Shown: positions 25,584 to 45,455 of the stretch, piece by piece | How positions within the stretch are numbered: the first letter of the stretch is position 1 | Layout of the letters: each line of letters starts with the position of its first letter | Virus record (IMG/VR): IMGVR_UViG_3300025141_014356 | Coordinates: 1 to 47,194 of that record | Length of the DNA stretch: 47,194 nucleotides | Source of the DNA: a virus | Reading direction: 5' to 3' (one strand) | The notes under the pieces: generated by a model | What the model saw: only the letters and a program-made list of their open reading frames with translations | Told to the model about the DNA's origin: nothing | Database searches by the model: none | Translations under genes and position numbers: made by a program

Positions 25584-25584
25584 T

Positions 25585-28279: not shown

Positions 28280-29164
28280 TCAAGCTCTAAGTTTATTCCT
28301 TTGCTCCATTTCAATGTCGTCTATAGCGTATGGCTTGCCTTCTAAGGCAACTTCTAAGGCTCGAAGGTCTCTGATAAGCTTTTTTAAACCTTGTTTCTCC
28401 AGAGAGCAGGACGCATCTGTATGTCGGAATGATCTGTCATCTATAAAATGCCTTTCAAAGTATCTAGCTCCTAAAACATATGCTGCTGGTTCCATGGCGA
28501 TCCCATATCCATGATTTGAAAACCCTAATTTAAGATTTGAGCTAACACTTAGATTGTCGCATTTGGATTTAAATGTTGAAGACATCGTTGTCAGTTCTTG
28601 TAGGTAGAGTTTGTCGAATGGTACTGGATAGCCACTAGTACAGTGATATATGACTGTACGTTCTAGATTTTTGTCTTTTTCAAGTATATGAGTGAATAAT
28701 AAATCTCTTTCCACGTGGTTGGTCATGCCGGTAGAGATGTGAAGTCCGCATTTGCTGTTGTCGTATATGTAATCTATGAGATCTGTTCTATGGTTGCATG
28801 CACTAGGTATTTTTATGAAATCAGGTTGTAGTTCGACTATCTCTTTGGTAGATGTTTCGTCCCAGACTGATGTACTGTATACGATTCCTATTTTTTCACA
28901 ATATTCTTTGAGTACCGCATGTTGATCTTGAGATAATTCTAGATTAAGTCTGTGTTCTAGATAGGTATCTCCGTAAGAGAATGTTTGGTTTGGATGAGGT
29001 CTGTCCCACCATTCTCTAGCAACGCTTTCGTATGGATTTCGTTTTTGAAATTTAACTACATCTGCTCCAGCTTCTTTTGCTAGTTTAATGAGTTCTTTTG
29101 CTCTGTCTACTTTACCGATATGAGTCCCGCCGATTTCAGCTATTACTGTTGCGTACTTTTTCAT
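28280..29164 (-). CDS. neuB: Nonulosonic (sialic) acid synthase, NeuB-like
   Basis: A 294-residue protein. ATG 29164 is chosen because TTGGAGA precedes it at the right distance. NeuB features: VIAEIGGTHIGKVDRAKELI, then AGADVVKFQKRNPYE, IVYSTSVWDE, FIKIPSACN, HISTGMT and ILGFSNHGYG-like KLGFSNHG. The final ERHFIDDRSFRHTDASCSLE matches the phosphoenolpyruvate-site end. The enzyme condenses PEP with an N-acyl-mannosamine-type sugar. The antifreeze-like SAF domain of full NeuB (about 340 residues) is missing. It is transcribed opposite to the rest of the glycan cluster. Confidence 0.85.
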   Translation of the reverse strand: MKKYATVIAEIGGTHIGKVDRAKELIKLAKEAGADVVKFQKRNPYESVAREWWDRPHPNQTFSYGDTYLEHRLNLELSQDQHAVLKEYCEKIGIVYSTSVWDETSTKEIVELQPDFIKIPSACNHRTDLIDYIYDNSKCGLHISTGMTNHVERDLLFTHILEKDKNLERTVIYHCTSGYPVPFDKLYLQELTTMSSTFKSKCDNLSVSSNLKLGFSNHGYGIAMEPAAYVLGARYFERHFIDDRSFRHTDASCSLEKQGLKKLIRDLRALEVALEGKPYAIDDIEMEQRNKLRA

Positions 29165-29330
29165 ATTTGTCTCCAATCTATTTTTTTATCGGAATGTGAA
29201 AGATAATTCGATATAATATTTACTATGACAAGAATTAAAATAGCTATTTTTGATAAATAACAAAGGATATTCAGTACAGAATTAATAACTTAGTATTGTA
29301 TGGAACCTTAACAAAAAAAAAGGAGATATA

Positions 29331-30317
29331 ATGCTAATTATTAAGGATTGTTATAAGATTAATAAGAAAACAAAAGAAATAATAAAAAGACAAAAAGTTG
29401 ATATTTCTTGTGATGAATGCGGTTGTGTTTGGAGCAGTTTGTACGGAAATCGAAAAAGAAAAATATACAAAAAAGATTTATGTAAGTCGTGTAGGAGTAA
29501 AAAAAGCTATAAAAACCAAATATCTTTATCTAAAAGACGATGGAGTGGTGTCGATGCAAAAGAAAATGTTAAGTGTTTGTTTTGCGGAAAAGTTTTTGGT
29601 AGGTTTCCTTCTCAAATTAATAAGACCAACAATTTTTGCAGCATAAAGTGTAGAGATGATTCTTTTTTGAAGAGATATAACCATCTTTATAAAACGTTTG
29701 AAGATAATGAAAATGAGGTTGCTTATTTGTTTGGTTTAATTTTGGGAGATGGAAATTTTAAAAAGACTCAAAAACATACAACTAGAGTTAGTATTTCTTT
29801 TAATTCGGAACAGATAAGTATGGTTATGCTTGCAGAGAACGTTTTGAAGAAATTAGGAATAAAATATTATTCTAAAACTGAAAAAAAATCTAAATGTACA
29901 AATGTAGGATTTGTTTTATTGGATGATTTATTGAAAAAATATGATATGTTATGGTCTGGATCTAAATATAAAAGTCAACCCTATCCAAGTACAAAAATAG
30001 TTAGAAATATAAATATGGTAGTTGGTTTAATTAATTCTGATGGACGTTGTATCGTTAATAAGAGTAATATAGTATACATTGTGTTTTCAAATACCGTTAA
30101 TTCTATAGTAAAGGCGTTTACTGATTGTTTAAAATATCATAAAATAAACTTTAGATATAGGAAAGATCCTGGACGTTTTGATGAGAGAACTGGCAATACA
30201 AACAAAGATTCAATGCATATTTGTTTGAAAAAAGAATATACTAATTGCATAAAAAATGAAAAGAGTATAGCCTTGAAAGGAGAAAATGGATACGCATATA
30301 AAAGTGTTTGTAACTGA
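29331..30317 (+). CDS. LAGLIDADG homing endonuclease with N-terminal zinc fingers
   Basis: A 328-residue protein with AAAAGGAGATATA before the ATG. The N-terminal 110 residues hold three Cys clusters (SCDECGCVW, LCKSC, KCLFCGKVFG..FCSIKC). The two catalytic helices are AYLFGLILGDGNF near residue 133 and VVGLINSDGRC near residue 229, each with its acidic residue. It is free-standing: no intein or intron borders are visible. It overlaps the KdsC-like gene by 32 bases, placing a homing gene directly between the two sugar-acid genes. Confidence 0.85.
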   Translation: MLIIKDCYKINKKTKEIIKRQKVDISCDECGCVWSSLYGNRKRKIYKKDLCKSCRSKKSYKNQISLSKRRWSGVDAKENVKCLFCGKVFGRFPSQINKTNNFCSIKCRDDSFLKRYNHLYKTFEDNENEVAYLFGLILGDGNFKKTQKHTTRVSISFNSEQISMVMLAENVLKKLGIKYYSKTEKKSKCTNVGFVLLDDLLKKYDMLWSGSKYKSQPYPSTKIVRNINMVVGLINSDGRCIVNKSNIVYIVFSNTVNSIVKAFTDCLKYHKINFRYRKDPGRFDERTGNTNKDSMHICLKKEYTNCIKNEKSIALKGENGYAYKSVCN

Positions 30318-30801
30318 TTTAGACGGTACATTGACAGATGGGACTTATAGGGTTTCTGAAGATGGGACTGTTACTAAATCTTTCAATACTAAAGATTTCC
30401 ATGGGTTGTCGAAGCTACAGGATTTGGGAGTTGAGGTTTGTATTATAACTGGTGCTACAGATATGTGCATCGAGCAACAGGTAAAAAGGTTGCCTAAAGT
30501 AGCAAAATCTAAATTGCATGTTTTTAGTTCTATAGCGGACAAGAAGAGTCTTGTTGAAGAACAGATTTTGAAAGATGGGATCACATTCGATAATGTTATT
30601 TATATGGGAGACGATGAAAATGACTTAGAATGTATGAAGTTGGCTAAGATTACTGCTTGTCCGAGAGACGCTATACTGGAAATACAAGAGGAATCTAACT
30701 ACATTTCCGATAACAATGGAGGACATGGAGCAGTAAGAGATTTTATAGATCTCTTACTTAAAAATAAAGATATAATATTAGGAGAAAAAAATGAGAGTTA
30801 A
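30286..30801 (+). CDS. HAD-family phosphatase, KdsC-like (sugar-acid 8/9-phosphate phosphatase)
   Basis: A 171-residue protein, the length of KdsC. HAD motifs: VFVTDLDGTLTDG, then the typical KdsC segment KSFNTKDFHGLSKLQDLGVE, VCIITGAT, and IYMGDDENDLECMKLA. GAAAGGAG precedes the ATG. With NeuB next door it most likely removes phosphate from a nonulosonate 9-phosphate, as in the Kdo or sialate-9-P routes. A dedicated CMP-sugar synthetase (NeuA/KdsB) is not found in the window. Confidence 0.8.
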   Translation: MDTHIKVFVTDLDGTLTDGTYRVSEDGTVTKSFNTKDFHGLSKLQDLGVEVCIITGATDMCIEQQVKRLPKVAKSKLHVFSSIADKKSLVEEQILKDGITFDNVIYMGDDENDLECMKLAKITACPRDAILEIQEESNYISDNNGGHGAVRDFIDLLLKNKDIILGEKNES

Positions 30802-31264
30802 TGTAATAGGAAAACAGGTCAAAGGAAAAAGGCTAGGCGATTTGGATCAAGTAAAGAATCTCGCTAGAAAGTTTGGAGCAGCAGCGAAATATAATCATAT
30901 TAGAGTTCAGTTCCCAAGCGGTGACGAAAAACATTTATTGTTCACTGATTGGCAGATTAAACTTGGACTCAAGAGGGCTAATAAAAATCCAGAAGATTTA
31001 CCCAAGGTGTCTTGGATACGCGATATAATCGTAGATGAGATAAGTCTTTTCGATGAGTCGAGAATGACAGATTTACAGGAAGTCGTAAACAAGAAGAAAG
31101 TCCCACAAGCGGCAAGTAAATATAATCATATAAGAGTATTGGTCGCCGGTGAAGAATGTCATATGCTCTTTACTGATAAAGATGTTATAGTCGCTTTGGA
31201 TAGAGCTAAGAAAAATACAGAGGATTTACCTAAAACATCTTGGTTGAAAGATATGCTAGATTAA
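30791..31264 (+). CDS. Hypothetical protein of two tandem repeats
   Basis: A 157-residue protein made of two copies of about 50 residues: YNHIRVQFPSGDEKHLLFTD...NPEDLPKVSW (residues 33-78) and YNHIRVLVAGEECHMLFTDK...NTEDLPKTSW (residues 110-154). Both begin with SKYNHIRV or AKYNHIRV. This is an internal gene duplication of a small beta-alpha domain. It overlaps the KdsC-like gene by 11 bases with AGGAG upstream. I recognise no function. Confidence 0.65.
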   Translation: MRVNVIGKQVKGKRLGDLDQVKNLARKFGAAAKYNHIRVQFPSGDEKHLLFTDWQIKLGLKRANKNPEDLPKVSWIRDIIVDEISLFDESRMTDLQEVVNKKKVPQAASKYNHIRVLVAGEECHMLFTDKDVIVALDRAKKNTEDLPKTSWLKDMLD

Positions 31265-31275
31265 GGAAGACAGAT

Positions 31276-31473
31276 ATGAGCAGTAAAATATTTTTAATTG
31301 TCTGTTTAGTTGTGTTATTGATCTCTTTTTGTTTGATAATTAAGTTTAAGTCTAACGAATCTCAACAGACATTCCCCGCCGGAACACAGATTGAGTATCG
31401 TGAAAAAATTGAAGTTGATCAAGGTTATGAACGTCATGAAGTACATGAGAAGCGTTGGAGTTTAGGGAAATAA
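31276..31473 (+). CDS. Small single-pass membrane protein
   Basis: A 65-residue protein from ATG 31276 (AAGGAAG upstream). Residues 3-26 form one membrane segment (KIFLIVCLVVLLISFCLIIK), and the rest is charged (EYREKIEVDQGYERHEVHEK). It follows the repeat protein by 11 bases. It may be anchored in the host inner membrane; no known family. Confidence 0.5.
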   Translation: MSSKIFLIVCLVVLLISFCLIIKFKSNESQQTFPAGTQIEYREKIEVDQGYERHEVHEKRWSLGK

Positions 31474-31517
31474 AGATTAAATAAAGGATTTGTCATGAGG
31501 TAGAAGTAGATATAGTT

Positions 31518-32306
31518 ATGGCAAACAAATTATATACAAACAAAAAATGGTTAACGACACAATATTGTAAATTAAAAATCCCTACCGCTGATATAGCTAA
31601 AAGCTGTGATTCTAACGCTAATATAATTAGATATTGGTGCAGAAAATTTAATCTAAAAAGATATAGGCTTAGAAAAGGTAGATATTATGATGTTAACGAA
31701 GATTATTTTTCTAAAATCAACAACACTGAAAAAGCGTATTGGCTAGGATTTATTGCTGCTGACGGATGTGTTGGAGATAAGAAGGGTCAGAAAATGCTTT
31801 CTATCGAGTTGGCTTTTAAGGATAAGTCTCATTTAGAAAAATTAAAAAAGAATATTGGATATAGTGGTCCAGTTCATGATAAAATAAGAACTGTCAAAGG
31901 CGAACTTCGTTATAGTTGTTATTTGACAATTTGTTGTGAAAGAATTGTTGATGATCTATTTAAACTAGGCATAGTTCCAAGAAAGAGTAGTATATTGAAA
32001 CGTCCAAATATAAAAGAAGAGTTTTTTAGACATTGGATCAGAGGTTATTTTGATGGGGATGGATCTGTATCAGTTTGTAACGGTAAAAATATTATAGGTC
32101 AGTTTTTTGGAACAAAAGATGTTATCGAGTTTATATGTGAAAATAGACCAGGGCGTGGATCTCCATGCAAGAAAAAAGATTCTAAAGGATGGTATTGTAG
32201 TTGGGGCGGTAATTTGATATCTAAAAAGATATACGATTATATGTATAAACGATCAAAAGTTTGTTTAGAAAGAAAAAAGAAAGTCTTTTTGAGTTTGTCG
32301 AAATAA
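31518..32306 (+). CDS. LAGLIDADG homing endonuclease with N-terminal HTH
   Basis: A 262-residue protein. The N-terminus looks like a helix-turn-helix (IPTADIAKSCDSNANIIRYW). The catalytic helices are AYWLGFIAADGCV near residue 73 and WIRGYFDGDGSVSV near residue 173. It is unrelated in detail to the other LAGLIDADG protein 2 kb upstream, so two separate homing genes invaded this stretch. It is followed by the DUF1257-like gene after 12 bases. Confidence 0.85.
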   Translation: MANKLYTNKKWLTTQYCKLKIPTADIAKSCDSNANIIRYWCRKFNLKRYRLRKGRYYDVNEDYFSKINNTEKAYWLGFIAADGCVGDKKGQKMLSIELAFKDKSHLEKLKKNIGYSGPVHDKIRTVKGELRYSCYLTICCERIVDDLFKLGIVPRKSSILKRPNIKEEFFRHWIRGYFDGDGSVSVCNGKNIIGQFFGTKDVIEFICENRPGRGSPCKKKDSKGWYCSWGGNLISKKIYDYMYKRSKVCLERKKKVFLSLSK

Positions 32307-32318
32307 AGGAATATAAAT

Positions 32319-32720: not shown

Positions 32721-32724
32721 AAAG

Positions 32725-33108
32725 ATGAGTGAAAACATTACAGTAAAAGTCGATCTAAAGGACGAAACTTGTTTGGTAGGCTCTTAAGGAGTTGGGATTT
32801 GTTGTTGAACAACATGTAGCAGCTAAAGTAATCAAAAGTTACTACAATAGAAATGGCAGTAAGAAAGCTCATTCTACGAAAAGCATCTAACAAACTGAGT
32901 GCTGATGTGGGTTTTGAGATGGTAGGAGACACATATGTCATGCATTGCGATTCTATGGACAAAAGGAAGCTTAAGCTTAAACTTTTGAAACAGTTGTACT
33001 CTAAGCATAGAGTAAAGCAGACTATCAGAAGGAAGAATACTAAATATTTTTAAATCAGAAAAAGTAGATAAGGATGGTCGCATCCGAATTAAGGTTGCGT
33101 TACGTTAA
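32725..33108 (+). pseudogene. Decayed tandem copy of the DUF1257-like gene
   Basis: The region encodes, in successive frames, MSENITVKVDLKDETCLVGS (stop), ALKELGFVVEQHVAAKVIKS, ADVGFEMVGDTYVMHCDSMD, KLLKQLYSKHRVKQTIRRKN and finally KSEKVDKDGRIRIKVALR before TAA 33106-33108. Each piece aligns in order with the intact copy at 32319-32720. At least three frameshifts are present, with total length still a multiple of three. An internal ATG-started piece (32853-33053) is an artefact of this decay, although its translation cannot be excluded. Confidence 0.75.
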
Positions 33109-33112
33109 AATC

Positions 33113-33697
33113 ATGGGTAAGAAATCAACAAAATCAAAAATCATACAAAGACGTAATAGAGTTTTCGCTAAGCGAGAGAAAAAACGAGCAGCTAATCTGA
33201 AGCTTGTTGAGAAAATTCTTTTATATGATGCTCCTGAACTTCATCTTCCATCTACAGAACTTACTAAGGATGATGACGCTTCGTTTATCGGGACTCTGAC
33301 GGATGTTTTATGCGCGACTTCAAACGGAGTTGGTATGGCGGCTTGTCAGATAGGAGTAAATAAAAGAGTATGTGCATTAAGAATTAATACGAAGCTTAAC
33401 GTAGTAAAATTATTAATAAATCCGGAAATTATAGAACAATCTTCTAATAAATTCACTACCGGAGAAGAGGGGTGTCTTTCCTTCCCAGGAATAGTCTCAG
33501 AAATTCAAAGACCTTATAGTATAAAGGTTAAATATTTAGATGAAAATTTTGAAGAACATGTAGAAGATGTTGAAGGATTTGCATCGAAAGTCATTGGACA
33601 CGAAATAGATCACATGGATGGTCAGTGTCTCATTGGCAAAATATGGAAAGAGAGACAGAACCCTGAGGAGACGTTCGTTGAAAAAACAAAAGAGTGA
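33113..33697 (+). CDS. def: Peptide deformylase
   Basis: A 194-residue protein from ATG 33113, four bases after the pseudogene stop. All three deformylase motifs are present: GVGMAACQIG, EGCLSFPG and GHEIDHMDG (metal ligands Cys and two His, catalytic Glu). The N-terminal 30 residues are very basic (KKSTKSKIIQRRNRVFAKRE), an extension not usual in phage deformylases. It removes formyl groups from nascent proteins. The 3' end overlaps the radical SAM gene. Confidence 0.9.
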   Translation: MGKKSTKSKIIQRRNRVFAKREKKRAANLKLVEKILLYDAPELHLPSTELTKDDDASFIGTLTDVLCATSNGVGMAACQIGVNKRVCALRINTKLNVVKLLINPEIIEQSSNKFTTGEEGCLSFPGIVSEIQRPYSIKVKYLDENFEEHVEDVEGFASKVIGHEIDHMDGQCLIGKIWKERQNPEETFVEKTKE

Positions 33698-34676
33698 TTT
33701 GTTCAAATGTGAGATATGTCCGCATGAATGTACGTTGAAAAGCGGTCAAGTTGGTATCTGTGGGGCTAGAAAAGCTTCTAAGGATGGGATATATCTCGAA
33801 GGTTACAGTCGCATTTCTACAATGGCTATAGAACCGATTGAAAAGAAGCCTTTTTATCATTTCTTCCCAGGTTCTAAGATATTGTCAGTCGGCGGTTATG
33901 GTTGTAACTTGTCTTGTAGTTTTTGCCAGAATACATGCATAAGTAAAAAGAAGGACGCTGACGGATGTAAATATTTTAGTCCAAGTGCGATAGTCAATAT
34001 GGCTGTTGCAAAAGGGTGTATTGGCGTATGTATGACTTATACTGAGCCTATCCCTTATTATGAGTTTCTTATAGATTTGGCAGAGAAGTGTAAGAAGCAA
34101 CATATCAAATTTATGATAAGCACAAATGCTTACGCTGAAGAATCCCCTTGGCTTGATATTATCGAGGCTACTGATGCTCTGAATATAGACTGGAAGGGCG
34201 ATCCTAGCCAATATTATCATAGATGCGGAGCGAACAAGGATAAAGAGATTACTGTCCTTAAAAGGATAAAACAAGCCATTGAGAAAGGGAAGCATGTAGA
34301 GATCAGTCTCCCAGTTTATAAGGATAGTGATTTATATAATTTTGCTGCTCTTTTTCGTTTGGATTCGATAGGTCCAAAATCGGATGTTCCGCTTCATGTA
34401 TTGAGGATTATTCCAACTGACGAAAACTTAGGTGAGGGTAGTTCTGATGAAATGGTTTTTGAGGTAGCAGAATATTTAAAGACTGGTTTTAATTTCGTCT
34501 ATGTCCATAATATCTTCAACGATAAAGCTGTAGAACTTAGAAGGACAGTATGTCCCGATTGTAATAGCGTCATTGCGACGAGAGAAGCACTAAAGGCAGA
34601 AATAAAATTGAATTATAAATGCGATAAATGTAAGAGTATATTTGTAGATGAAAAGAATTGGCGAAAAAGAATTTAA
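33678..34676 (+). CDS. Radical SAM enzyme, PflA / AmmeMemoRadiSam-like
   Basis: A 332-residue protein. TTG 33678 is taken as the start because GAGGAG lies seven bases upstream; it overlaps deformylase by 20 bases. An N-terminal Cys cluster (CEICPHECTLKSGQVGICG) is followed by IEKKPFYHFFPGSKILSVGG and the radical SAM cluster GCNLSCSFCQN. A C-terminal Cys ribbon (CPDCNSV...YKCDKCKS) completes the layout of the radical SAM partner of AMMECR1/MEMO proteins, relatives of glycyl-radical activases. No AMMECR1, MEMO or glycyl-radical enzyme is visible here. The substrate is unknown. Confidence 0.8.
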   Translation: MKKQKSDLFKCEICPHECTLKSGQVGICGARKASKDGIYLEGYSRISTMAIEPIEKKPFYHFFPGSKILSVGGYGCNLSCSFCQNTCISKKKDADGCKYFSPSAIVNMAVAKGCIGVCMTYTEPIPYYEFLIDLAEKCKKQHIKFMISTNAYAEESPWLDIIEATDALNIDWKGDPSQYYHRCGANKDKEITVLKRIKQAIEKGKHVEISLPVYKDSDLYNFAALFRLDSIGPKSDVPLHVLRIIPTDENLGEGSSDEMVFEVAEYLKTGFNFVYVHNIFNDKAVELRRTVCPDCNSVIATREALKAEIKLNYKCDKCKSIFVDEKNWRKRI

Positions 34677-35452
34677 AAGACATAAGAAGAGTGATACACT
34701 TGTAATTTATGGGTGTGGTTACTCTATCAAAAAACTTACAGAGGAGGACAAAAAGAAGCTGATGCAATTTGATAGCATTGGCTTCAATTAACTGGTTTTG
34801 TAAAAGTAGAATCCCAACTACTTTCTATTTTTTAAGAGAGCAAGCGATTAAGACGTTTACGACTAGGGGTGAAACATATGGTGTTTTATCCGGCGTATTA
34901 GGTCGTCATTACCCAAAGACATGTCTGATATGTGATGATATGTCAGAATCTTCTCCTAGATGGAGTCGGATTAATACTTATTCGCTTAAAAGTGCTACTA
35001 ACAAATTTAACCAAAGCGGTGTGGTTTTGAAAGAAATTTTTGCAAAAACAAAACTCGAAGAGTTTAAAGATAAACTTGGAGCGAGAGGTCGTAGACAATC
35101 TATAATTTCTAAAAAGATGTTAGAATATGATGTTTTTACTGACGGATTGATTTATGATTTTTGTACTATGACATGCATTTTACATATTGCTACATATTTG
35201 GGGTATAAGAATATTATATTCGTTGGAGTTGACTTGTATGACCATCGATATTTTTGGTTACCAGAGAATGCCCTTAGAGGAATCACTAGAATAATGGGTA
35301 GAGGGTTAGAACAAAAGCACCATACGGCTAAATACACTTGTGAGTTAGTTGCAATGTACAAAAAGGTAACTGGTAAGAATTTGTACACATTTAATCCAGA
35401 TTCACTTTTGAAAGATCATATTGCAGTATATGATATAAGTTTGGGTAAATGA
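34648..35452 (+). pseudogene. GT42-like sialyltransferase homolog, frameshifted near its N-terminus
   Basis: ATG 34648 opens a frame reading KSDTLVIYGCGYSIKKLTEE, then FDSIGFN, which stops at 34789-34791. The following frame continues NWFCKSRIPTTFYFLREQ and runs to 35452. The joined sequence aligns along its length with the intact homolog at 44736-45455 and with the Cst sialyltransferase pattern: G-x-G-x-S start, GYKNIIFVGVDLYDHRYFW, a His pair in KHHTAKYT and YTFNPDSLLKDHI. About four extra bases at the break explain the shift. It may be inactive, slippage-corrected or a sequence error. A downstream ATG at 34769 gives only the truncated C-terminal part. Confidence 0.6.
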
Positions 35453-35453
35453 T

Positions 35454-36518
35454 ATGGCTAAATCTACTATAATTCATTACATTTCTAGTTTTGATACAGG
35501 TGGAGCACAATCTATTTTGCTAGAGCTTTATTATGCTATCAACAAGTATTCAGATTATAAACAAATTGTTTATACTAGAAAAATTGGAAGTGAGAGAGCT
35601 AGGCAGAATGCTCATTCGTATGGAGTAAAACTGGTAGAGCTAAAGGAGAAGAAATTTGCTCAACATATCTTAACTCATAAGCCGTGTTTCCTGATATACC
35701 ACAAGTTATTTCATTCTGACACAAACATTTATCAAAAATTATATTCTAAAATACCTGTCATAGTTGTAAATCATACTTTTACAATGAGTAAAGTGTGGTC
35801 CAAGATTAAAAGATGCAATTATATAGTATCTGTTTGTAAGAGTATGTCAAATGGCATAGCGAAGAATAGGAAGCTTTGTAAAGGGAATATGGCAACTATA
35901 TTGAATGGTGTTAATAGGGAGAGGTATCTGCCTATTAAAGCGAGAAAAAGGCATGAGACAGATACACTTATAACTGGTAGAGTCAATACATTTAATAAAT
36001 GGAAGTATTCTGACGGATGGATAAAGTGGTGCTCGAAAGTTAAGCTGCCTAGACCAATGGTTCATGAATATATAGGGAATGGACCATTCTTTAAAAGGTC
36101 TAGAAAGTATTTGTCTAGAATTAAAAATAGTAGAAATCATGTTGCTCTGCTCGGTTCGATCACTTCTTTTGAAAAAAAAATATCTATAATGAAAAGTTGG
36201 GATCTGTTTTTATATGAGATCAACGAGCAAGAGGGGCTTAGCGTTTCTGTTTTGGAATCTTTAGCTTGTGGCGTACCTGTTATTTGTAGTAATCACTTTG
36301 GCAACAAAGAGATTATAGAAAATGGGGTAAATGGTTATGTCTTTCAAAGCAAAAATCACGCTAAAGACATAATGACTGAACTTTGTGAGAATCCGGCTAA
36401 ACTAGCAAAGCTTAAAGAAACTACTAAAATCCATTTTAAGGAAAAACATTTAGATGCTAAATATATGGCAAGGTCATATATCAAATTGTTAGAAAAAATA
36501 AAGATTAAAAAGAGATGA
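35454..36518 (+). CDS. Glycosyltransferase family 4 (GT-B)
   Basis: A 354-residue protein. The N-terminal acceptor domain starts HYISSFDTGGAQSILLELYY, and the C-terminal donor domain has ITGRVNTFNKWK, then EINEQEGLSVSVLESLACGVP (catalytic E-x7-E) and NGYVFQS. It starts one base after the previous stop and overlaps the next gene by four bases. It is most like the 38013 gene in the cluster. Sugar and acceptor are unknown. Confidence 0.8.
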   Translation: MAKSTIIHYISSFDTGGAQSILLELYYAINKYSDYKQIVYTRKIGSERARQNAHSYGVKLVELKEKKFAQHILTHKPCFLIYHKLFHSDTNIYQKLYSKIPVIVVNHTFTMSKVWSKIKRCNYIVSVCKSMSNGIAKNRKLCKGNMATILNGVNRERYLPIKARKRHETDTLITGRVNTFNKWKYSDGWIKWCSKVKLPRPMVHEYIGNGPFFKRSRKYLSRIKNSRNHVALLGSITSFEKKISIMKSWDLFLYEINEQEGLSVSVLESLACGVPVICSNHFGNKEIIENGVNGYVFQSKNHAKDIMTELCENPAKLAKLKETTKIHFKEKHLDAKYMARSYIKLLEKIKIKKR

Positions 36519-37432: not shown

Positions 37433-37440
37433 GAGATAGT

Positions 37441-38016: not shown

Positions 38017-39005
38017 GAGTAATTAACATAATAGATAGTCTTGAATTGAACGGAGGATCTACCACTTTTCTTGAAATGGCTGCTGGGATGCATAAATACT
38101 GGAAATGTAACATTCATTCATACGTTGTTAGCAAGACAGGTCTTTTGGGAAGGAATGGTTTAGTAGATAATGGCTTTGCTCCTTCCTATAAAGTTCCTTT
38201 GGAAATTTACGATTATTCTAATTTTGAAAGGAAGGTCGTTCCAAAGATTAGGAATTGTCTCGTTTTTCATCATGTGCTCGGTTATACAAAGAGTATAAAG
38301 TTTCATAAATCTTGCAAGTATGTAATTGTAAATCACAGAGACATTAATCTCCATAGACTCCCAAAATTCAAAGCGTTCAAAATTGTGTGTGTTTCTAATT
38401 ATTTCGCTAAGCAAGTTAGAAAAGCTAAAGCAGGCAATCCAGTTGTTATTCTTAATGGGTGCGAAGATTACTACAATACTAAGCCATCTCATCCCAGCGA
38501 CAAATTGGTTTTGGGTAGGTGTCAAAGAGTTACACCGTCAAAGTTTTTAAATGAAAAGATCCGGGACGAACGTGTATCTCAATATATAGTTGGGCCAGTA
38601 GATCCCAAAGCTAAACGTTTAATTCCCAAAGGGGCTAAGTTGTTTGGTCCTGTATTTAGACTAAATGAAAAGATTCCAATTATTAAAAGTTTTGATCTTT
38701 ATCTTCACGGATCGAATCGTCCCGAAGGTTGCAGTATGGCTATTTTAGAAGCTTTATCTTGTGGAGTTCCAATTGTCGCAAGAGATGCAGGAGGAGGGGT
38801 GAGCGAAATTATAATTCAAGGTGTTAATGGATTTTTGTATAAAACCGAATCGGAGTTAAAGAAAATTATTTCACAACTTATAGACGATAAAGAATATATG
38901 AAAAAGATGAAAGAAAGTACTCACAAGTATTTTTTAGAAAAATTTCATGTTAAGCATATGTTAGATAATTATAAAAGGATGTTCAATGATTGCGGAATCA
39001 TCTAG
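38013..39005 (+). CDS. Glycosyltransferase family 4 (GT-B)
   Basis: A 330-residue protein: INIIDSLELNGGSTTFLEMA at the start, VILNGCEDYYN, LGRCQRVTPSKFLNEKI, and HGSNRPEGCSMAILEALSCG with the donor-site E-x7-E. It resembles the 35454 gene. The last 20 bases overlap the next gene, whose start carries the poly-Ser repeat. Confidence 0.8.
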   Translation: MRVINIIDSLELNGGSTTFLEMAAGMHKYWKCNIHSYVVSKTGLLGRNGLVDNGFAPSYKVPLEIYDYSNFERKVVPKIRNCLVFHHVLGYTKSIKFHKSCKYVIVNHRDINLHRLPKFKAFKIVCVSNYFAKQVRKAKAGNPVVILNGCEDYYNTKPSHPSDKLVLGRCQRVTPSKFLNEKIRDERVSQYIVGPVDPKAKRLIPKGAKLFGPVFRLNEKIPIIKSFDLYLHGSNRPEGCSMAILEALSCGVPIVARDAGGGVSEIIIQGVNGFLYKTESELKKIISQLIDDKEYMKKMKESTHKYFLEKFHVKHMLDNYKRMFNDCGII

Positions 39006-39780
39006 TCCCAGTTCTTCTAGTTCTTCTAGTTCTTCTAGTTCTTCTAGTTCTTCTAGTTCTAGTGCAATAAAATTTTCTGTACTTACAGCTACAAGGGATT
39101 GTCTTCGATATGTCGGAGAGATGATGCGTAGTGTTATTTCTCAAAGCTACGATAATTGGGAACATATAATAGTAGATGATTGTAGTAGCGACAGAACCTA
39201 TAAGAGGGCATGTGAAATTGCCGCTAAGCATGATAATATCATTGTTGTTCGTAACGAAGAGCGTTTGTATTGCGGGGCTAACTATAGAAAGATACTGTCT
39301 ATGGCTACTGGTAAATATTGTGGAATTCTAGATGGAGATGATAAACTTAGACCTGATTCTATATCTAGAATAGTTGAATTGTATGAGAATAACCTTGACG
39401 TAGATTTTATTTGGACTAATCATAAGTGGGGCAATACCAAAATGGATAGATTTAGAAATGGATTGTCTAGTATGGCTAAAAAAGGAACTATTTATGATTC
39501 AGAGGCAGGATTGAAGCATGTTTATTCTCATTGGAGAACTTTTAAAACTGAGATGCGAGACAGAGGAGAACTTTTTAGAGATTTGAAGTGTACTGTAGAT
39601 AAAGATCTCGGATATAACCTCGAAGAGTTGGGGCAGGGAGCTTTCCACTCAAAGCAGCTATATTTGTATAGATACCATAGTAGCAATATGTCTCACAATT
39701 CATCTCAGAAGGATGTGTGGAAGAAAATTAGGAAATATCATGAAAATAAATATAGACCATTTGAGATTGTAAAAATATGA
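38986..39780 (+). CDS. Glycosyltransferase family 2 with N-terminal poly-serine tract
   Basis: A 264-residue protein. Residues 5-26 are almost pure Ser, encoded by a nine-base tandem repeat. The GT2 domain follows: FSVLTATRDCLRYVGEMMRS, IIVDDCSSDRT and CGILDGDDKLRPDS (D-x-D). The C-terminal part SHWRTFKTEMRDRGELF...LEELGQGAFHSKQLYLYR is shared with the 41645 protein, so these are paralogs. The start overlaps the upstream gene by 20 bases. The Ser tract may be a flexible linker. Confidence 0.8.
   Translation: MIAESSSPSSSSSSSSSSSSSSSSSSAIKFSVLTATRDCLRYVGEMMRSVISQSYDNWEHIIVDDCSSDRTYKRACEIAAKHDNIIVVRNEERLYCGANYRKILSMATGKYCGILDGDDKLRPDSISRIVELYENNLDVDFIWTNHKWGNTKMDRFRNGLSSMAKKGTIYDSEAGLKHVYSHWRTFKTEMRDRGELFRDLKCTVDKDLGYNLEELGQGAFHSKQLYLYRYHSSNMSHNSSQKDVWKKIRKYHENKYRPFEIVKI
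39010..39063 (+). repeat. Nine-base tandem repeat (AGTTCTTCT) coding poly-Ser
   Basis: Five perfect units at 39010-39054, then AGTTCTAGT. It lies at the 5' end of the GT2 gene. Changes in copy number alter linker length but not frame. Confidence 0.9.
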
Positions 39781-40712
39781 AAAAAGTTAGATTAAAAATA
39801 TATTCTTCAGGTTTGGGGTCAAAAGTTTTCATAAGTAGGCTTAGTAAAAATTTGACTTCTAATTTTCCTGTAGATATAGTTGATAAGAGAGAGGACATCT
39901 ATCTGTCATGCGTCTGGAGGGGTCCAGGTAAGTCTAAAGATGCTATTTGGATACATAGGGCAGATGGGGTCTATTTTGATGAGCTACGGCATGGCAGAAC
40001 GGGTATGAATAAAAAAATAAAAAAGAATATCAAAAGATCTGATGCGGTTATTTTTCAGAGCGATTTTTCTAAAAAAATATGTAAAGGTGTTTTAGGGATC
40101 TCAAAAAATGAGAGTAGAATAATATATAATGGATGCGATCCAGATATTTATAAAAAATCTATTAAAGATAAGATGGGTTATAAGAAAATGTTAGTTGCTT
40201 GTGCTAGATGGGTTCCTCTTAAGCGTCCTCGTTCTATCATAAATGGTTTCATTAGGGCAGACCTCAAAGATACTGTTTTAGTAATGATAGGCAAAATAGA
40301 TAAAAAAAATATGATACCTCACCCTAATGTTAAATATCTCGGGCATATCAAACCCTTTGAAACATATAAGCATTATGCTAGTTGTGATGGCGTTATACAT
40401 ATCAGTAGATTAGACGCTTGTCCTAATGCCGTTGTAGAGGCTTTGTGCGCTGGCAATCCAGTTTTGTCTAATAACGTTGGGGGGACTCCAGAATTAGTTA
40501 AAGATGATGGTGTTATAATAGATATCGATCCAATATGTAAATACAGATCATTTAAAATGAAGCGTCCAGATAAGGTCTCCCCAAAGATTGTAAGCGTTGG
40601 TATAAAAGAATTGTTGTCAAGAGAGTGGAGTATCCATCGCCCAGACCTGCATATCATAAATGTTGCCGGACAATATTACGATTATTTTAGATATTTATTG
40701 GATAGGAGATAA
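39777..40712 (+). CDS. Glycosyltransferase family 4-like, second of three close paralogs
   Basis: A 311-residue protein: IYLSCVWRGPGKSKDAIWIH, IIYNGCDPD, ACARWVPLKRPRSIINGF, and SRLDACPNAVVEALCAGNPV with E-x7-type donor loop and GGTPELV. It aligns over its full length with 36515-37432. It overlaps the upstream gene by ATGA. Confidence 0.8.
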   Translation: MKKVRLKIYSSGLGSKVFISRLSKNLTSNFPVDIVDKREDIYLSCVWRGPGKSKDAIWIHRADGVYFDELRHGRTGMNKKIKKNIKRSDAVIFQSDFSKKICKGVLGISKNESRIIYNGCDPDIYKKSIKDKMGYKKMLVACARWVPLKRPRSIINGFIRADLKDTVLVMIGKIDKKNMIPHPNVKYLGHIKPFETYKHYASCDGVIHISRLDACPNAVVEALCAGNPVLSNNVGGTPELVKDDGVIIDIDPICKYRSFKMKRPDKVSPKIVSVGIKELLSREWSIHRPDLHIINVAGQYYDYFRYLLDRR

Positions 40713-40715
40713 TAA

Positions 40716-41648
40716 GTGTTAAATTTGCAGGGAACAGGGCGAGTACAGAAAATTGTTGGTCGCAAAAAAGACGGTTCTATAGAAGTCGTTCAGGACTTGT
40801 TATGTGCTAGGAAGCATGTTATAGATAATAATTGGAAACACATCAAACGAGCAAAAAAGTTATTTGCTTTTGTATCTTCTCCTAAGATATATAATCAAAA
40901 AAGGATGAGAAAAAAGGTACAAGCATGGTGTCATGTTTTTAGAAAACCTCATAAAATGTTACCTAAAAGCGTTCCTTCCATATTGTTGCCAGAATCTGAT
41001 TTTATAGATTCTTCTTTGATTCTAAATTCTAGCTCTAGATCGTATGCATATGATTATTTTTATTTCACAATTAATTCTACTGCTGGGATAAAAAATAAAG
41101 GGTTATATAATTTTATAGATATCCTTCCGACTCTAAACAAGATGAAGTTAAAAGGTCTTGTAATAGTTTACTTTCCAAATAACGGTAAGCGAAAAAACTT
41201 TGTTGTACCGTTGTCTTCAAGACAAAAGGCGATACTTAGATTTAGCAAACCTTTTTTAAGGTATCATTGGGGAATACTTGATGCTAAGGGTATGGATCGT
41301 TGCATGTCGCAGTGTAGATTTGGGTTATTTCCTAATAAAGTTGATAATAGTCCAAGAATAATAAGTGAATGTCTTTCTAGAGACGTTCCTATATTGGTAA
41401 ATAAAAAAATACATGGTGGATGGCATTATGTGAGTAAACAAACAGGAGCTTTATTTACGATGAAAGATATAGAGAATAAGATTGAGTTTATGTTAAACAA
41501 TAAATTTAATCCTCGTAAGTATTATGAGGCTAATTTTGGGTTTAATAATTCTTCGCAACGATTAGCTTCTTTCTTAAATCCTATTTTTGATTACAGCTAT
41601 ACACATATGTGTTTTAAAGCTTTTAAAGCGAGGTTAGAGCAAGTATGA
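40716..41648 (+). CDS. Divergent GT-B glycosyltransferase-like protein
   Basis: A 310-residue protein from GTG 40716 with AGGAG upstream. The C-terminal part CRFGLFPNKVDNSPRIISEC, then LSRDVPILVNKKIHGGWHYV, resembles the donor domain of GT4 enzymes, but the second catalytic Glu is not clear. The N-terminal region has no obvious GT-B nucleotide fold. The opening GRVQKIVGRKKDGSIEVVQD is loosely echoed by the partial gene at 47126. Function less certain than its neighbours. Confidence 0.5.
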   Translation: MLNLQGTGRVQKIVGRKKDGSIEVVQDLLCARKHVIDNNWKHIKRAKKLFAFVSSPKIYNQKRMRKKVQAWCHVFRKPHKMLPKSVPSILLPESDFIDSSLILNSSSRSYAYDYFYFTINSTAGIKNKGLYNFIDILPTLNKMKLKGLVIVYFPNNGKRKNFVVPLSSRQKAILRFSKPFLRYHWGILDAKGMDRCMSQCRFGLFPNKVDNSPRIISECLSRDVPILVNKKIHGGWHYVSKQTGALFTMKDIENKIEFMLNNKFNPRKYYEANFGFNNSSQRLASFLNPIFDYSYTHMCFKAFKARLEQV

Positions 41649-42385
41649 AGGTTACGATATTGACAGCGTGTTACAATTGTGCTCCATGGATAAAACAGAG
41701 TATAAAGAGCGTTTTATCTCAAGATTATAAAAATTGGGAATGGATTATAGTTAATGATAAGAGTTCTGATAGCTCTTTAAAAGTTATTCGAAAGCATACT
41801 AAAAAACATGATAATATTAAAGTTATCAATAATAAGTCTAGACTGAAATGCGGAGGATCATATGCATTAGCTTTAGAACATGCTACTGGTGATATTTGTT
41901 GCGTTTTAGATGCAGACGATATTTTGGTTAACAGTAATGCCTTATCTACATTAGTTCAGTTATATGAAAAATATACAGAAGTAGCGTATATTTGGACTCA
42001 GTTTAAGTTTTGTGATTCTAATATGAAGGTTTTAAAAAATGGTTCTTGTCAATTGCCAGATACTTCGCTTTTGCAAGCTGGACTTGATTATTCGAAGTAT
42101 AGGCATTCTTTTTCTCACTGGAGAACGTTCAGAACAGAATTGAGAGAGTTAGGTGAGATATTTAAAAAAGGATTACCAGCGGCAGTGGATAAGTGGATGG
42201 GATATGCTCTAGAAGAGCTTGGAATTGGAGGATTTTACCCTAAAACTTTATATTTATATAGACAGCGAGTAGGAGGTTTATCTTTTAAAGGTAGAAAGCA
42301 TTGGAGTAAGATGTTGAAAACCTTTGAGAAGAAAAGGCGTGAAGAGAATGTTGAAGCGTATCCTACAATAAGATTATCATTATAG
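41645..42385 (+). CDS. Glycosyltransferase family 2
   Basis: A 246-residue GT-A enzyme: VTILTACYNCAPWIKQSIKS, WIIVNDKSSDSS and CVLDADDILVNSN (D-x-D). The C-terminal block HWRTFRTELRELGEIF...LEELGIGGFYPKTLYLYR is shared with the 38986 protein but without the poly-Ser start. It overlaps the previous gene by four bases. Confidence 0.85.
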   Translation: MKVTILTACYNCAPWIKQSIKSVLSQDYKNWEWIIVNDKSSDSSLKVIRKHTKKHDNIKVINNKSRLKCGGSYALALEHATGDICCVLDADDILVNSNALSTLVQLYEKYTEVAYIWTQFKFCDSNMKVLKNGSCQLPDTSLLQAGLDYSKYRHSFSHWRTFRTELRELGEIFKKGLPAAVDKWMGYALEELGIGGFYPKTLYLYRQRVGGLSFKGRKHWSKMLKTFEKKRREENVEAYPTIRLSL

Positions 42386-42394
42386 GACATTAAT

Positions 42395-43084
42395 ATGGAA
42401 AAAACAAACATTATAGATTTTTTAAAGTATTGCGATTTTGATTATAGGATATATATCGAAAACGTTTTACGAATCGGAGATAGTACTGCCATACGTGAAC
42501 TTAAAGGAGTAATGTATAGAAGGAATTATGAACGCGGTTTACTTTTGATGGGTATTATCAATAAATTCAGTTCAACAAAGTTTTTAGAGTTTGGTACGGG
42601 TCGAGGGTTCGCTACAGCTTGTGCTCTGTTTGCAAAAAGCGATTTAGAGATAACGACCATAGATAGTAAGTCATCTGAACATTCTAAGGATCTTATATGT
42701 AGTTTGGGGATAGACGTTAGTCCCGTTTCCTTCTTAGGAGTAGATAGCAAATCTTTATCCGCTAAAGATATCGGAGATGGTTTTGATCTTGTTTTTATAG
42801 ATGGTGGTCATGATTATAAGAGTGTTAAAAATGATTATGAGATAGCTGTTAAATGTTGTAAAAAAGGAATAATAGTGTTTGATGATTTTAGGAATAAACA
42901 TGCTGGAGTTAAAAAGTTTATTAAAAGCTTAGATGTAACGAAAATTTTAGTTAATACACAAGGTTGGATTTGGAAAAATAAAATGATGGCAAAAACAAAG
43001 GATGGAGATGGAATAGTGGATGGTAAAGAGCATAAATCAGGACAAGTCGTTGTCCCTGTTAATATTGATTTGGATAGTAAATGA
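42395..43084 (+). CDS. SAM-dependent methyltransferase, Methyltransf_24-like
   Basis: A 229-residue protein: KFLEFGTGRGFATACALFAK (SAM loop), ITTIDSKSSEH, FDLVFIDGGHDYKSVKNDYE and GIIVFDDFRN, the same order as in the 37441 protein. An N-terminal extension of about 55 residues precedes the fold. It overlaps the next GT2 gene by four bases. It probably methylates a sugar in the same glycan. Confidence 0.75.
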   Translation: MEKTNIIDFLKYCDFDYRIYIENVLRIGDSTAIRELKGVMYRRNYERGLLLMGIINKFSSTKFLEFGTGRGFATACALFAKSDLEITTIDSKSSEHSKDLICSLGIDVSPVSFLGVDSKSLSAKDIGDGFDLVFIDGGHDYKSVKNDYEIAVKCCKKGIIVFDDFRNKHAGVKKFIKSLDVTKILVNTQGWIWKNKMMAKTKDGDGIVDGKEHKSGQVVVPVNIDLDSK

Positions 43085-43839
43085 TTAAAGATAAAGTTTC
43101 CATAATAGTACCGCTTTATAATTATAAAGATTATATTGTAGAATTAATAGATTCTGTAGAAAATCAAAACTATGATCCATTGGAATTAATAATAGTTGAT
43201 GACTGTTCTACCGACGATCCATGTACAGTTATCGACCCTTATATTTCAGACAAGATAAAATATTTTAGACTCGATGAGAATAAGGGTTATGCCACAGCTA
43301 AAAATGAAGGCATTATTAAGTCTAATGGTGAGTATATTGTTGTTTTAGATGCGGATGACATGTTGTCTCCTAAGTCAATAATTCGTAGAGTTGCTTTTAT
43401 GAAAAGGAAAGAGGCAAAATGGCTTCATGCTAAGGCTTATGAATTCTCAAATGCTAAACCTTATAAATTTGTATGGAGGAAAAGACAGTTCATTAGACGT
43501 TTCGAAAAGATGAAGAAAAATGGTAAATACAAAAATCTTTGGAATACTATTCACGCTCAAACGGTTATGGTCCATCGTTCAGCTTATTTGAAGGTGGGAT
43601 TGTATCGAGAATCGATGAGATCAATGTCTGATAAGGAAATGTGGGCTAGATTACAGTTTAATGTCGGGCTACCAGCTTATTTTAATAAGTTTGTAGCATA
43701 TTACAGAATGCATAAAAATCAAATGCATAGGAGTAAAAGTAAAAAGAAGAATCTTCCTAATCTTCTTAAGCAGCTTAATGATTCGGTTAAAAGAAGTAAG
43801 AAAGGAGATTTTAGTGAAGTGAGGAAGCTTAATGAGTAA
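43081..43839 (+). CDS. Glycosyltransferase family 2
   Basis: A 252-residue GT-A enzyme: VSIIVPLYNYKDYIVELIDS, IIVDDCSTDD, GYATAKNEGIIKSNGEYIVV and LDADDMLSPKS (D-x-D). The C-terminus has SDKEMWARLQFNVG and a Lys-rich end. It is less related to the other two GT2 proteins. It overlaps its neighbours by four and eight bases. Confidence 0.85.
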   Translation: MIKDKVSIIVPLYNYKDYIVELIDSVENQNYDPLELIIVDDCSTDDPCTVIDPYISDKIKYFRLDENKGYATAKNEGIIKSNGEYIVVLDADDMLSPKSIIRRVAFMKRKEAKWLHAKAYEFSNAKPYKFVWRKRQFIRRFEKMKKNGKYKNLWNTIHAQTVMVHRSAYLKVGLYRESMRSMSDKEMWARLQFNVGLPAYFNKFVAYYRMHKNQMHRSKSKKKNLPNLLKQLNDSVKRSKKGDFSEVRKLNE

Positions 43840-44743
43840 TTTGAGAATTTCATTTTCTTGTAAATTGAAGCCTAGTTCTGGAAAGCAAAAATTTGCTATA
43901 AGAATCGCTAAAGCGATGCGTAAGTTAGGTGTTAAGATTACAGATAAAAGACCTGATGCTAATTTAGTTTTTGTTAAAGGCATTAAAAAGGGATGTGTTA
44001 ACATTATGCGTCTTGATAATGCTTGGATTAATAATAAGATGAATTCTGTCGGTAAAAACTCAAAGATAAATAGGACATTGAGAAGATGTAAAGGAGCCAT
44101 TTATCAAGGAGTTTATTCTAAAAAAGTCTGCGATAAATTTATAGGAAGGTTTAAAAGGAAGTGTGCTATTATACCTAACGGCTGTAACCCTTTTGAGTTT
44201 AATGAGAATTTTAAACATAGTAAACCTTATATTTTGGCTTTTTCTAGATGGAGACCTCATAAAAGATTAAAAGATATAACGGTTGGGTTTTTGGAGAGTG
44301 GTCTTAAAAAGACACATGATCTTATTGTTTGTGGTGATCCTGATTTTATAGTAAAAGATAGTAGTGTAATATATAAGGGAAGGACAGGTCCGAAAGAGAC
44401 GAATGCTTTTATTAACGGATGCGATTTTGTTTCTCATTTGGCTTATATGGATTGTTGCCCTAATTCTGTGGTAGAATCGTTGGTGTGCGAAAAGAATGTT
44501 TTATATTCGGATAGCGGTGGGATGAAAGAGTTAGTCGGAGATAATGGATATTTGATACATGATAAGCCGTTTAAATTTAAATTGATAGATTTGTATAATG
44601 CTCCAGAGCTAAACATGGATGAGATCATTAGCGGGTACAATAATATTTTAGAAGTCAAAAGTACGGTTAGACACGATTTACATATAGATGAGGTCGCAAC
44701 AAAGTATATTGATTTTATCAAAAAGGTAGTGAAAAATGCGTGA
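43832..44743 (+). CDS. Glycosyltransferase family 4-like, third of three close paralogs
   Basis: A 303-residue protein: KPSSGKQKFAIRIAKAMRKL, IIPNGCNPFEF, AFSRWRPHKRLKDITVGFLE and AYMDCCPNSVVESLVCEKNV with GGMKELVGDNG. It is the most diverged of the 36515/39777/43832 set. It overlaps the GT42-like gene by eight bases. Confidence 0.75.
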   Translation: MSNLRISFSCKLKPSSGKQKFAIRIAKAMRKLGVKITDKRPDANLVFVKGIKKGCVNIMRLDNAWINNKMNSVGKNSKINRTLRRCKGAIYQGVYSKKVCDKFIGRFKRKCAIIPNGCNPFEFNENFKHSKPYILAFSRWRPHKRLKDITVGFLESGLKKTHDLIVCGDPDFIVKDSSVIYKGRTGPKETNAFINGCDFVSHLAYMDCCPNSVVESLVCEKNVLYSDSGGMKELVGDNGYLIHDKPFKFKLIDLYNAPELNMDEIISGYNNILEVKSTVRHDLHIDEVATKYIDFIKKVVKNA

Positions 44744-45455
44744 TTTGTCAAAAGAACAATTTATAGATCGCAAAAAAAGTGATACACTTTTTATTTTGGG
44801 TAGCGGTTATTCTATAAATAAAATTAAAGATTGGGATAAGATAAAGAAGTTTGATTCTATAGCGTTTAATTGGTTTTGTAATCATGAATTCGCTCCTAAT
44901 TTCTTTTTGATTCGTGAACAGTCTAATATAAAGTCTCGTGTTAATAAGAGCGAAACTGTCAAACGTTTTTATGGCTTATTATCTAAAGAATCATATAAAG
45001 ATACGTGTATGGTGGTCCAAAATCTAAAGCATTCTAGAAAAGCTAACATTCACATAAACAAGAAGGATTTACTTTCTCAACAAGGTGTTGTCTTAAATGA
45101 TATTCGCTGCCTTCGTAGACCAGATTTTAATACGGACATATTTAAAAAAGGCGTTATACATTATCGTTGTACGTTATCTAATGTTTTACACATTGGTGTC
45201 TTCCTTAAATATGATAGGATTATATTTGCTGGTGTAGATCTATATGATTCTAGATATTTTTGGTTGCCGCGAAAGAGTACTCGTAAAAATATTAAGCGTA
45301 AGGGTCTTATTTTTAAGAATAAACATCCAATTACTTCTAGTGTTTTAAAGACAGTAAGTTATGCTAAGCAGTGTGGCAATGTAAGAATGTATACGTTGAA
45401 TCATAAGTCTTTGTTGAAGAGGAAAATTGAATGTATATCAGAAGGAGATTTATGA
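44736..45455 (+). CDS. GT42-like sialyltransferase homolog (Cst-type)
   Basis: A 239-residue protein. KKSDTLFILGSGYSINKIKD matches the nucleotide-binding start of Cst-I/Cst-II (G-x-G-x-S-L). FDSIAFNWFCNHEF follows at the place of the conserved N-Q-F segment. LSNVLHIGVFLKYDRIIFAG, then VDLYDSRYFW, corresponds to the T-S-G...G-I-D-F-Y strand. NKHPITSS supplies a His near the catalytic position, and MYTLNHKSLLKRKI matches the end (PNSLL). Cst enzymes transfer sialic acid from CMP-sialate. NeuB lies 15 kb away in the same block. Assignment is from pattern only. Confidence 0.6.
   Translation: MRDLSKEQFIDRKKSDTLFILGSGYSINKIKDWDKIKKFDSIAFNWFCNHEFAPNFFLIREQSNIKSRVNKSETVKRFYGLLSKESYKDTCMVVQNLKHSRKANIHINKKDLLSQQGVVLNDIRCLRRPDFNTDIFKKGVIHYRCTLSNVLHIGVFLKYDRIIFAGVDLYDSRYFWLPRKSTRKNIKRKGLIFKNKHPITSSVLKTVSYAKQCGNVRMYTLNHKSLLKRKIECISEGDL

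Follow-up and report, generated by a model that had tools for sequence, protein, structure and literature searches.

The question raised by this locus is whether a phage can make a nonulosonic acid of its own and attach it to a glycan. A preliminary description of the viral record examined here (the window, by which we mean the whole stretch of 47,194 nucleotides) had proposed as much, with either the virion or the host surface as the recipient. Our analysis supports that proposal as a prediction, on the grounds of a GT42 fold, of NeuA genes beside NeuB in related phages and of the co-occurrence of pathway genes. Quite likely, the window from 28.28 kb onward stems from a large phage with genes for a nonulosonic acid pathway, in a record that is probably a chimera with a T4-like phage.

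Synthase, phosphatase and synthetase

At positions 28280–29164, on the minus strand, lies the gene for a 294-aa NeuB-family nonulosonate(-9-phosphate) synthase that lacks the C-terminal SAF (antifreeze-like) domain. Its match to Pfam PF03102 (187.9 bits against a cut-off of 22.1, E = 2.8e-55) bears out the earlier assignment. Aligned to N. meningitidis NeuB (1xuu), it retains six active-site metal/PEP residues (E25, K53, K129, H215, H236 and D247), whose equivalents E10, K38, K118, H218, H239 and D250 are invariant in 10/10 phage homologues. The closest solved structure in a profile search is 6ncs, itself SAF-less and 290 aa long. Against TIGR03569, the N-acetylneuraminate synthase equivalog, the protein scores 161.3 bits, below the cut-off of 399.65, and the C-terminal SAF domain of that type is missing, the chain stopping at 294 aa. 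None of the PHROGs families matched the window NeuB, and a NeuB homologue was detectable in 3 of 50,697 phage records. The KDO pathway was ruled out, as the synthase in the window does not belong to the KdsA type; the NeuA homologues also count against it, since PseF gives them higher scores than KdsB does and their solved relatives are NeuA structures.

The preliminary description had called NeuB and the KdsC-type phosphatase gene (30286–30801, plus strand, 171 aa) neighbors. The two do lie near each other, but on divergent strands and with a LAGLIDADG endonuclease ORF (29331–30317, plus strand; PF14528, 5.3e-08) in between, a mobile element outside the pathway. The related phage contig L002 carries a 51-aa LAGLIDADG remnant on the opposite side of NeuB. 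The phosphatase itself is a KdsC-like HAD enzyme, predicted from NCBIfam matches and its HAD motif to act on KDN-9-phosphate. Its best-scoring family is KDN-9-phosphate phosphatase (NF058599, KDN-9-PPhBT; 97.8 bits, equivalog cut-off 180), followed by KdsC (96.5 bits) and the KdsC/YrbI HAD profile (93.9 bits, cut-off 106.95), all below the curated cut-offs; a fusion protein in contig L010 reaches 145.9 bits against NF058599. The HAD motif (Asp11, Asp13, Lys86, Asp109 and Asp113) is invariant in 7/7 homologues, and the best PDB matches, 4hgq and 3e81, were deposited as acylneuraminate cytidylyltransferase. A conserved cassette protein follows (30791–31264, plus strand), 69% identical in L002 and 30% in L009, in both near the KdsC-like gene.

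A CMP-sugar synthetase, which the preliminary description could not see in the window and proposed to seek beyond it, indeed has no PF02348 match there, and neither NeuC nor NeuD was recognized in the window. A HAD-nucleotidyltransferase fusion at 25540–26949 was ruled out as a NeuA stand-in, its matches being RmlA/GlmU-like NTP transferases and not PF02348. In related phage contigs, the genes beside NeuB are those for the phosphatase, for a NeuA-like synthetase and for a transferase of a second family. PF02348 (CTP_transf_3) was found near NeuB in L002 (36.1 bits) and in 20 other NeuB contigs, which makes 21 of 22. L002 and L006–L010 each combine NeuB with a KdsC-like gene and NeuA, and all of them except L010 also have the second transferase family. 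Most phages encode phosphatase and NeuA separately; in L010 and the majority of bacterial homologues the two form a fusion. On one contig, G001, the pathway genes share a single sequence with a phage DNA polymerase, a helicase and tail genes. As the window lacks NeuA, the complete pathway is seen in relatives, not in this record. Contigs retrieved with the GT42-like profile alone all carry both NeuB and CTP_transf_3 (5/5). By comparison, control contigs retrieved by ribonucleotide reductase contain NeuB or NeuA in 0/36 cases, or 0/13 when restricted to contigs of at least 68 kb.

The scores of NeuB, of the phosphatase and of NeuA stay under the curated equivalog cut-offs, so the families do not reveal the substrate. 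A KDN-type sugar is more likely than N-acetylneuraminic acid because a SAF-less NeuB is combined with a 9-phosphatase and NeuC is not needed. Among 80 bacterial homologue loci, 74 have a NeuA/KdsC-family neighbor and the next commonest neighbor family appears in 15; a unit of NeuB and NeuA–KdsC with no other conserved partner fits a KDN-type route.

Proposed pathway and its target

Family membership, catalytic residues, fold, gene order and co-occurrence were established by computation; from them we infer the substrate, product, activity and target of the pathway. NeuB would join PEP to a hexose-6-phosphate of the host (most likely mannose-6-phosphate) and so form a nonulosonate-9-phosphate (KDN-9-P), from which the KdsC-like phosphatase would take off the 9-phosphate. 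A NeuA-like synthetase, encoded just left of NeuB in sister phages, would convert the product to the CMP-sugar, and GT42-like transferases would add the sugar to a glycan made by neighboring GT4/GT2 enzymes.

These enzymes belong to a glycosyltransferase cluster (35454–46318, plus strand) recognized by Pfam matches, with GT4-like genes starting at 35454, 36515, 38013, 39777, 43832 and 45431, GT2-like genes at 38986, 41645 and 43081, and methyltransferase genes at 37441 and 42395. Up to 39005 the gene order largely agrees with that of L002; genes beyond that point have no colinear counterpart. A sulfotransferase-like protein (46299–47129, plus strand; PF13469 4.3e-08, PF00685 5.8e-07) stands at the cluster end. 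Methyltransferases, and possibly sulfotransferases, would decorate the glycan further. Peptide deformylase-like and radical SAM genes (33074–34676, plus strand; PF04055) are 57% and 55% identical in L002 and keep the order seen in the cassette of phage G001.

The likeliest target is a glycan of the host surface, which would be extended on its cytoplasmic precursor and, once altered, would change receptor properties during infection, with decoration of the virion a close second. That the virion and not the host surface is decorated we regard as a real, if tentative, possibility. The cassette has no recognizable flippase, polymerase or initiating transferase, so that glycan export would depend on the host, and most cassette products resemble soluble GT4/GT2 enzymes; both observations speak for the virion. 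However, no glycoprotein acceptor could be identified, and published phage enzymes that modify nonulosonates target the host capsule (PMC12053666, PMC6586298).

The junction with T4-like sequence

Positions 1–27533 of the window are T4-like phage sequence, probably from a genome other than that of the cassette. Up to 24838, most genes share 67–93% protein identity with G029, a T4-like sister of 225 kb that has a Gp23 capsid gene and neither NeuB nor NeuA. From 28.28 kb on, the window matches a phage group unrelated to this left side, and the composition of 1–27533, nearest to that of G029 and the T4-like contig G028, switches at the junction. The probable splice point is a shared gene (27534–28259, plus strand; ORF 27549–28259 with an upstream ribosome-binding site) whose end lies 20 bp ahead of the NeuB stop. 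Its first part, 27534–27786, matches the end of G066 at 94.5% identity. This contig, from a G001-like phage, terminates in GT42c, NeuA and the shared gene just where the window passes to NeuB; G028 ends within the same gene, at 27816. A search of viral contigs for the exact junction sequence returned no second copy. Terminase_6N, tried as a phage marker, was uninformative.

Judged by these sequence comparisons, assembly has probably fused a T4-like phage and a cassette phage into one chimeric window, joined in the shared gene. Lateral transfer alone, our first reading of the mosaic, was displaced because G066 and the composition test make a chimeric contig more likely. NeuA would then be missing from the window because the contig was most likely spliced next to NeuB. 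The probable splice at 27534–28259 had been absent from the preliminary description.

We consider it unlikely that the record is a true recombinant, in which the T4-like phage took the cassette from a G001-like phage at 27534–28259, beside its tRNA genes, a place where variable glycan genes are known to concentrate. The variable region of the sister phage G029 likewise begins at a tRNA array, genes are intact across the junction, and GT2 and HAD-nucleotidyltransferase genes sit on the confirmed T4-like side. Yet two contigs, one from either phage, break off within one near-identical sequence, the classic setting for a false join, and the composition changes there. Moreover, the window loses NeuA and the second transferase precisely at the junction, although both are present across it in G066.

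GT42-like transferases and comparison with known systems

Two paralogous GT42-like proteins, both on the plus strand, would attach the sugar. The second (44736–45455, 239 aa) is intact and is a predicted CMP-nonulosonate glycosyltransferase. The first (34648–35452) is frameshifted, as had been described. The break lies near 34.77 kb: its N-terminus is read in one frame, which meets a stop near 34.79 kb, and the remainder in another, with ORF 34769–35452 as the C-terminal part. The break is either a real lesion or a sequence error; L002 has an unbroken orthologue (2973–3782, 269 aa, 59% identity).

Single GT42-like queries found nothing in viral contigs or the phage collection, and relatives were detected only with a three-sequence profile. 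The resemblance to Cst sialyltransferases first read from the sequence holds up. The family profile found Cst-I and Cst-II alone in the PDB (best E 6e-4). Comparison of the predicted structure of 44736–45455 with GT42, a check named beforehand, gave CstII (2drj) as the first-ranked Foldseek match of an AlphaFold model with pLDDT 82 and pTM 0.85 (E 2.3e-5, probability 1.0, TM about 0.5); as modeled, the protein has a GT42 fold. In the profile alignment, an invariant H197 and a DLYD-RYFW motif fall near H188 and Y156/Y162, the catalytic histidine and tyrosines of CstII, and may correspond to them. As far as profiles and a predicted model can tell, the likeness to Cst enzymes is not chance.

It is improbable that these proteins are instead MptE-like (DUF115) with another activity, so that only the NeuB/KdsC part concerns nonulosonates. 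Pfam MptE-like does match 6/8 family members, the two window proteins falling below the PF01973 cut-off of 34.6 (13.2 and 17.2 bits), and the MptE pyrophosphokinase 8sd5 is among the best Foldseek matches of the model, together with the P. multocida sialyltransferase 9c08, at TM about 0.5. However, profiles place Cst-I/II and Maf above MptE. The second transferase family, beside NeuA in relatives, matches Maf 5mu5 (3.8e-6), CstII and the P. multocida sialyltransferase by profile and CstII by predicted fold, with sialyltransferases only at the top. Co-occurrence with NeuB/NeuA is, in addition, complete in contigs retrieved independently of NeuB. Very improbable is a functionless cluster of decaying cargo, the "stuffer DNA" idea raised for cyanophage LPS clusters (PMC3037559): one frameshifted transferase and inserted endonuclease ORFs would fit it, but the NeuB catalytic residues do not change across six phage homologues at 46–72% identity, and unrelated phages retain the gene set.

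Several known systems resemble this cassette. First, KDN biosynthesis in Bacteroides thetaiotaomicron and the alga Prymnesium parvum (PMC6200933) likewise runs from a NeuB-type synthase via a 9-phosphate, through a KDN-9-P phosphatase family and a CMP-KDN synthetase, with no need for a NeuC step; here, in contrast, the genes are phage-borne, phosphatase and NeuA are mostly unfused and the substrate is predicted. Second, the Neisseria NeuB/NeuA sialic acid pathway draws its synthase and its synthetase from the same superfamilies, with the same active-site residues, whereas the phage set has no SAF domain, an extra KdsC-like phosphatase and no recognized NeuC/NeuD in the window. Finally, GT42 CstI/CstII and the Maf flagellin nonulosonate transferases share fold, sequence profile and NeuB/NeuA context with the phage proteins, although the latter are remote homologues (15–18% identity) that also lie close to MptE, and their activity is predicted.

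Phages that modify host nonulosonic acids and large phages that carry LPS genes are already known. The LPS/O-antigen clusters of cyanophages and pelagimyophages (PMC7824862, PMC3037559, PMC7029224) likewise combine glycosyltransferase blocks with sugar enzymes in large phages, often in variable regions; a term search of these three papers gave no hit for NeuB, sialic acid or neuraminate. Prophage EpaA/EpaB and Acinetobacter phage O-acetyltransferases (PMC12053666, PMC6586298) are, similarly, phage enzymes that alter host-surface nonulosonic acids, but they modify a host-made sugar, whereas the window genes would make the sugar de novo. PMC6292376, relevant by keyword, contains no nonulosonate gene. 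Phage-encoded de novo synthesis and activation of a nonulosonate was not found in the literature searched.

We think it fairly probable that several unrelated large-phage lineages have exchanged a complete nonulosonate module, consisting of a SAF-less NeuB, a KDN-9-P phosphatase, a CMP-synthetase and dedicated GT42/Maf-like transferases. Such a module would start from central metabolites of any host and would supply sugar de novo to re-coat the infected cell or sialylate the virion. The probable chimera is a practical warning against ascribing all genes of this record to a single phage. If active, the pathway would give phages control over one of the most recognized surface sugars.

A predicted phage-borne nonulosonate gene set

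The four genes recognised in the preliminary description, encoding NeuB, a KdsC-like phosphatase and two GT42-like transferases, are real. In alignment, NeuB (28280–29164, minus strand; PF03102, 187.9 bits) keeps the residues at E25, K53, K129, H215, H236 and D247 of N. meningitidis NeuB (1xuu), positions that are invariant in 10 phage NeuB homologues and whose roles we assume from the NeuB literature. The SAF domain is absent because the protein ends at 294 aa; it is likewise absent from the best profile match, the solved 290-aa protein 6ncs. The KdsC-type HAD protein at 30286–30801 has KDN-9-phosphate phosphatase as its top family (97.8 bits, under the cut-off of 180), and its best solved relatives are 4hgq and 3e81, named acylneuraminate cytidylyltransferase by their depositors and presumably the B. 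thetaiotaomicron KDN-9-P phosphatase.

The GT42-like pair (TRANSFERASES), 44736–45455 and 34648–35452, are paralogues of 32–36% identity. The latter is frameshifted, as had been described, with the frame change near 34.77 kb. A predicted structure of 44736–45455 unrelated to GT42 had been named as grounds for abandoning the assignment. Its predicted structure, built with 8 phage homologues, is confident (pLDDT 82, pTM 0.85) and matches CstII first in the PDB, then archaeal MptE (8sd5), Cst-I and P. multocida sialyltransferase, all at TM ~0.5. The assignment thus stands, qualified by the closeness of the MptE fold. Against the PDB, the sequence profile of this family matches Cst-I/II only. The cassette also contains peptide deformylase-like and radical SAM genes (33074–34676), kept there in the related locus L002, a GT2-like protein with a long serine-rich run at its start (38986–39780), and a LAGLIDADG endonuclease ORF, its second (31518–32306).

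A NeuA-like synthetase in related phages

No CMP-sugar synthetase is visible in the window, and the suggestion that one might lie outside it gained support when NeuB relatives were collected from viral contigs. In L002, on the 113-kb contig G001 (NeuB 71% and phosphatase 60% against the window, the orthologue of 34648–35452 intact), NeuB is adjoined by a NeuA-like protein of the CTP_transf_3 family, related among solved structures to CMP-sialic acid synthetases, and then by a second transferase-like family (GT42c) that matches Maf 5mu5, CstII and 9c08 by profile and CstII by predicted fold. Loci L006–L010 have this neighbourhood with changes; in L010, NeuA and phosphatase are fused, and the second transferase is absent from its short contig. 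CTP_transf_3 is present on 21 of 22 NeuB contigs. Two viral contigs of 351 and 548 kb each carry 3 NeuB-family and 4 CTP_transf_3 genes, as if one phage, taking the contigs as such, held several nonulosonate pathways.

All five other contigs picked by the GT42-like profile, with NeuB not used, contain NeuB and CTP_transf_3. Neither occurs on any of 36 control contigs picked by the window's ribonucleotide reductase, 13 of them at least 68 kb long. The chance of 5/5 versus 0/13 is about 1 in 8,600 (Fisher, our own arithmetic), with controls that represent large phages in general, not the cassette's own lineage, because they resemble the window's left half.

Probably two phages in one window

The window is probably made of two phages, and gene 27534–28259 is the hinge between them. 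Most genes of 1–24838 share 67–93% protein identity with G029, a 225-kb T4-like phage contig that has a T4-type capsid gene and from which NeuB, NeuA and all cassette proteins are absent. Another such relative, G028, shows complete identity to the window starting at 4255 and terminates at 27816, within the hinge gene. G001 has nothing in common with the window's left half and shares 4 of 105 ORFs with G029 (20–38% identity); it is colinear with the window over 28286 to about 38973. The G001-like contig G066 runs colinear with G001 for 35.7 kb and likewise terminates within the hinge gene, after GT42c and NeuA. By four-mer composition, all pieces up to 27.5 kb lie closest to G028/G029 and all pieces right of 28.28 kb closest to G066.

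This is most simply read as a false join at common sequence. In the phage to which the cassette belongs, the gene order would then be GT42c, NeuA, the shared gene, NeuB, phosphatase and further genes, then GT42-like and glycosyltransferases. A natural recombinant is the less likely alternative. Whichever holds, it is G001 that carries the argument for a phage-encoded pathway, since the pathway genes lie there on a single contig alongside DNA polymerase, helicase, exonuclease and tail genes of phage type.

The glycine-rich protein of 27549–28259 is encoded by DNA 94.5% identical between two unrelated phages and has 30–37% identity to 16 other viral contigs (L177–L192), many short. In G066 (L195, 44767–45717) the NeuA start is duplicated: a copy of 17 residues is separated from the complete gene by an insertion containing stops, an arrangement that may be left from a mobile element. 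Further left, 14878–15941 encodes a dUTPase with an intein, one ORF joining the N-parts of dUTPase and intein and the other the C-parts of intein and dUTPase, either a split intein or a broken frame. A fusion of HAD phosphatase and sugar-1-phosphate nucleotidyltransferase at 25540–26949 matches phrog_3980 and phrog_8468 and is not in G029.

The proposed sugar and its target

Of 80 loci in bacteria that carry the closest NeuB homologues, 74 have a neighbour from the NeuA/KdsC family, mostly as one fused protein of ~385 aa; the runner-up family neighbours NeuB in 15. The lack of a further conserved enzyme would fit a synthase whose substrate is a widespread hexose phosphate, like that of the KDN pathway, where mannose-6-P and PEP yield KDN-9-P (PMC6200933). 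Since all family scores are under equivalog cut-offs, we can only infer a KDN-type product.

The components are known; the whole set in phages appears undescribed, insofar as a keyword search of open-licence papers found no description of one. Term searches of three phage LPS-cluster papers (PMC7824862, PMC3037559, PMC7029224) found mention of neither sialic acid nor neuraminate. No PHROGs family matches the window NeuB, and a detectable NeuB homologue occurs in 3 of 50,697 phage records.

We propose that NeuB would make a nonulosonate-9-phosphate, the HAD enzyme would remove the 9-phosphate and NeuA would form the CMP-sugar. The GT42-like enzymes would then cap a glycan that is built by the many GT4/GT2 enzymes and would also gain methyl- and perhaps sulfo-groups. 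As neither a flippase nor a polymerase nor an initiating transferase could be recognised in the cassette, the acceptor would be either a lipid-linked glycan of the host or a protein of the virion. The host surface is where published nonulosonate-altering phage enzymes act (PMC12053666, PMC6586298), and we therefore infer that it is the likelier target, with the virion second.
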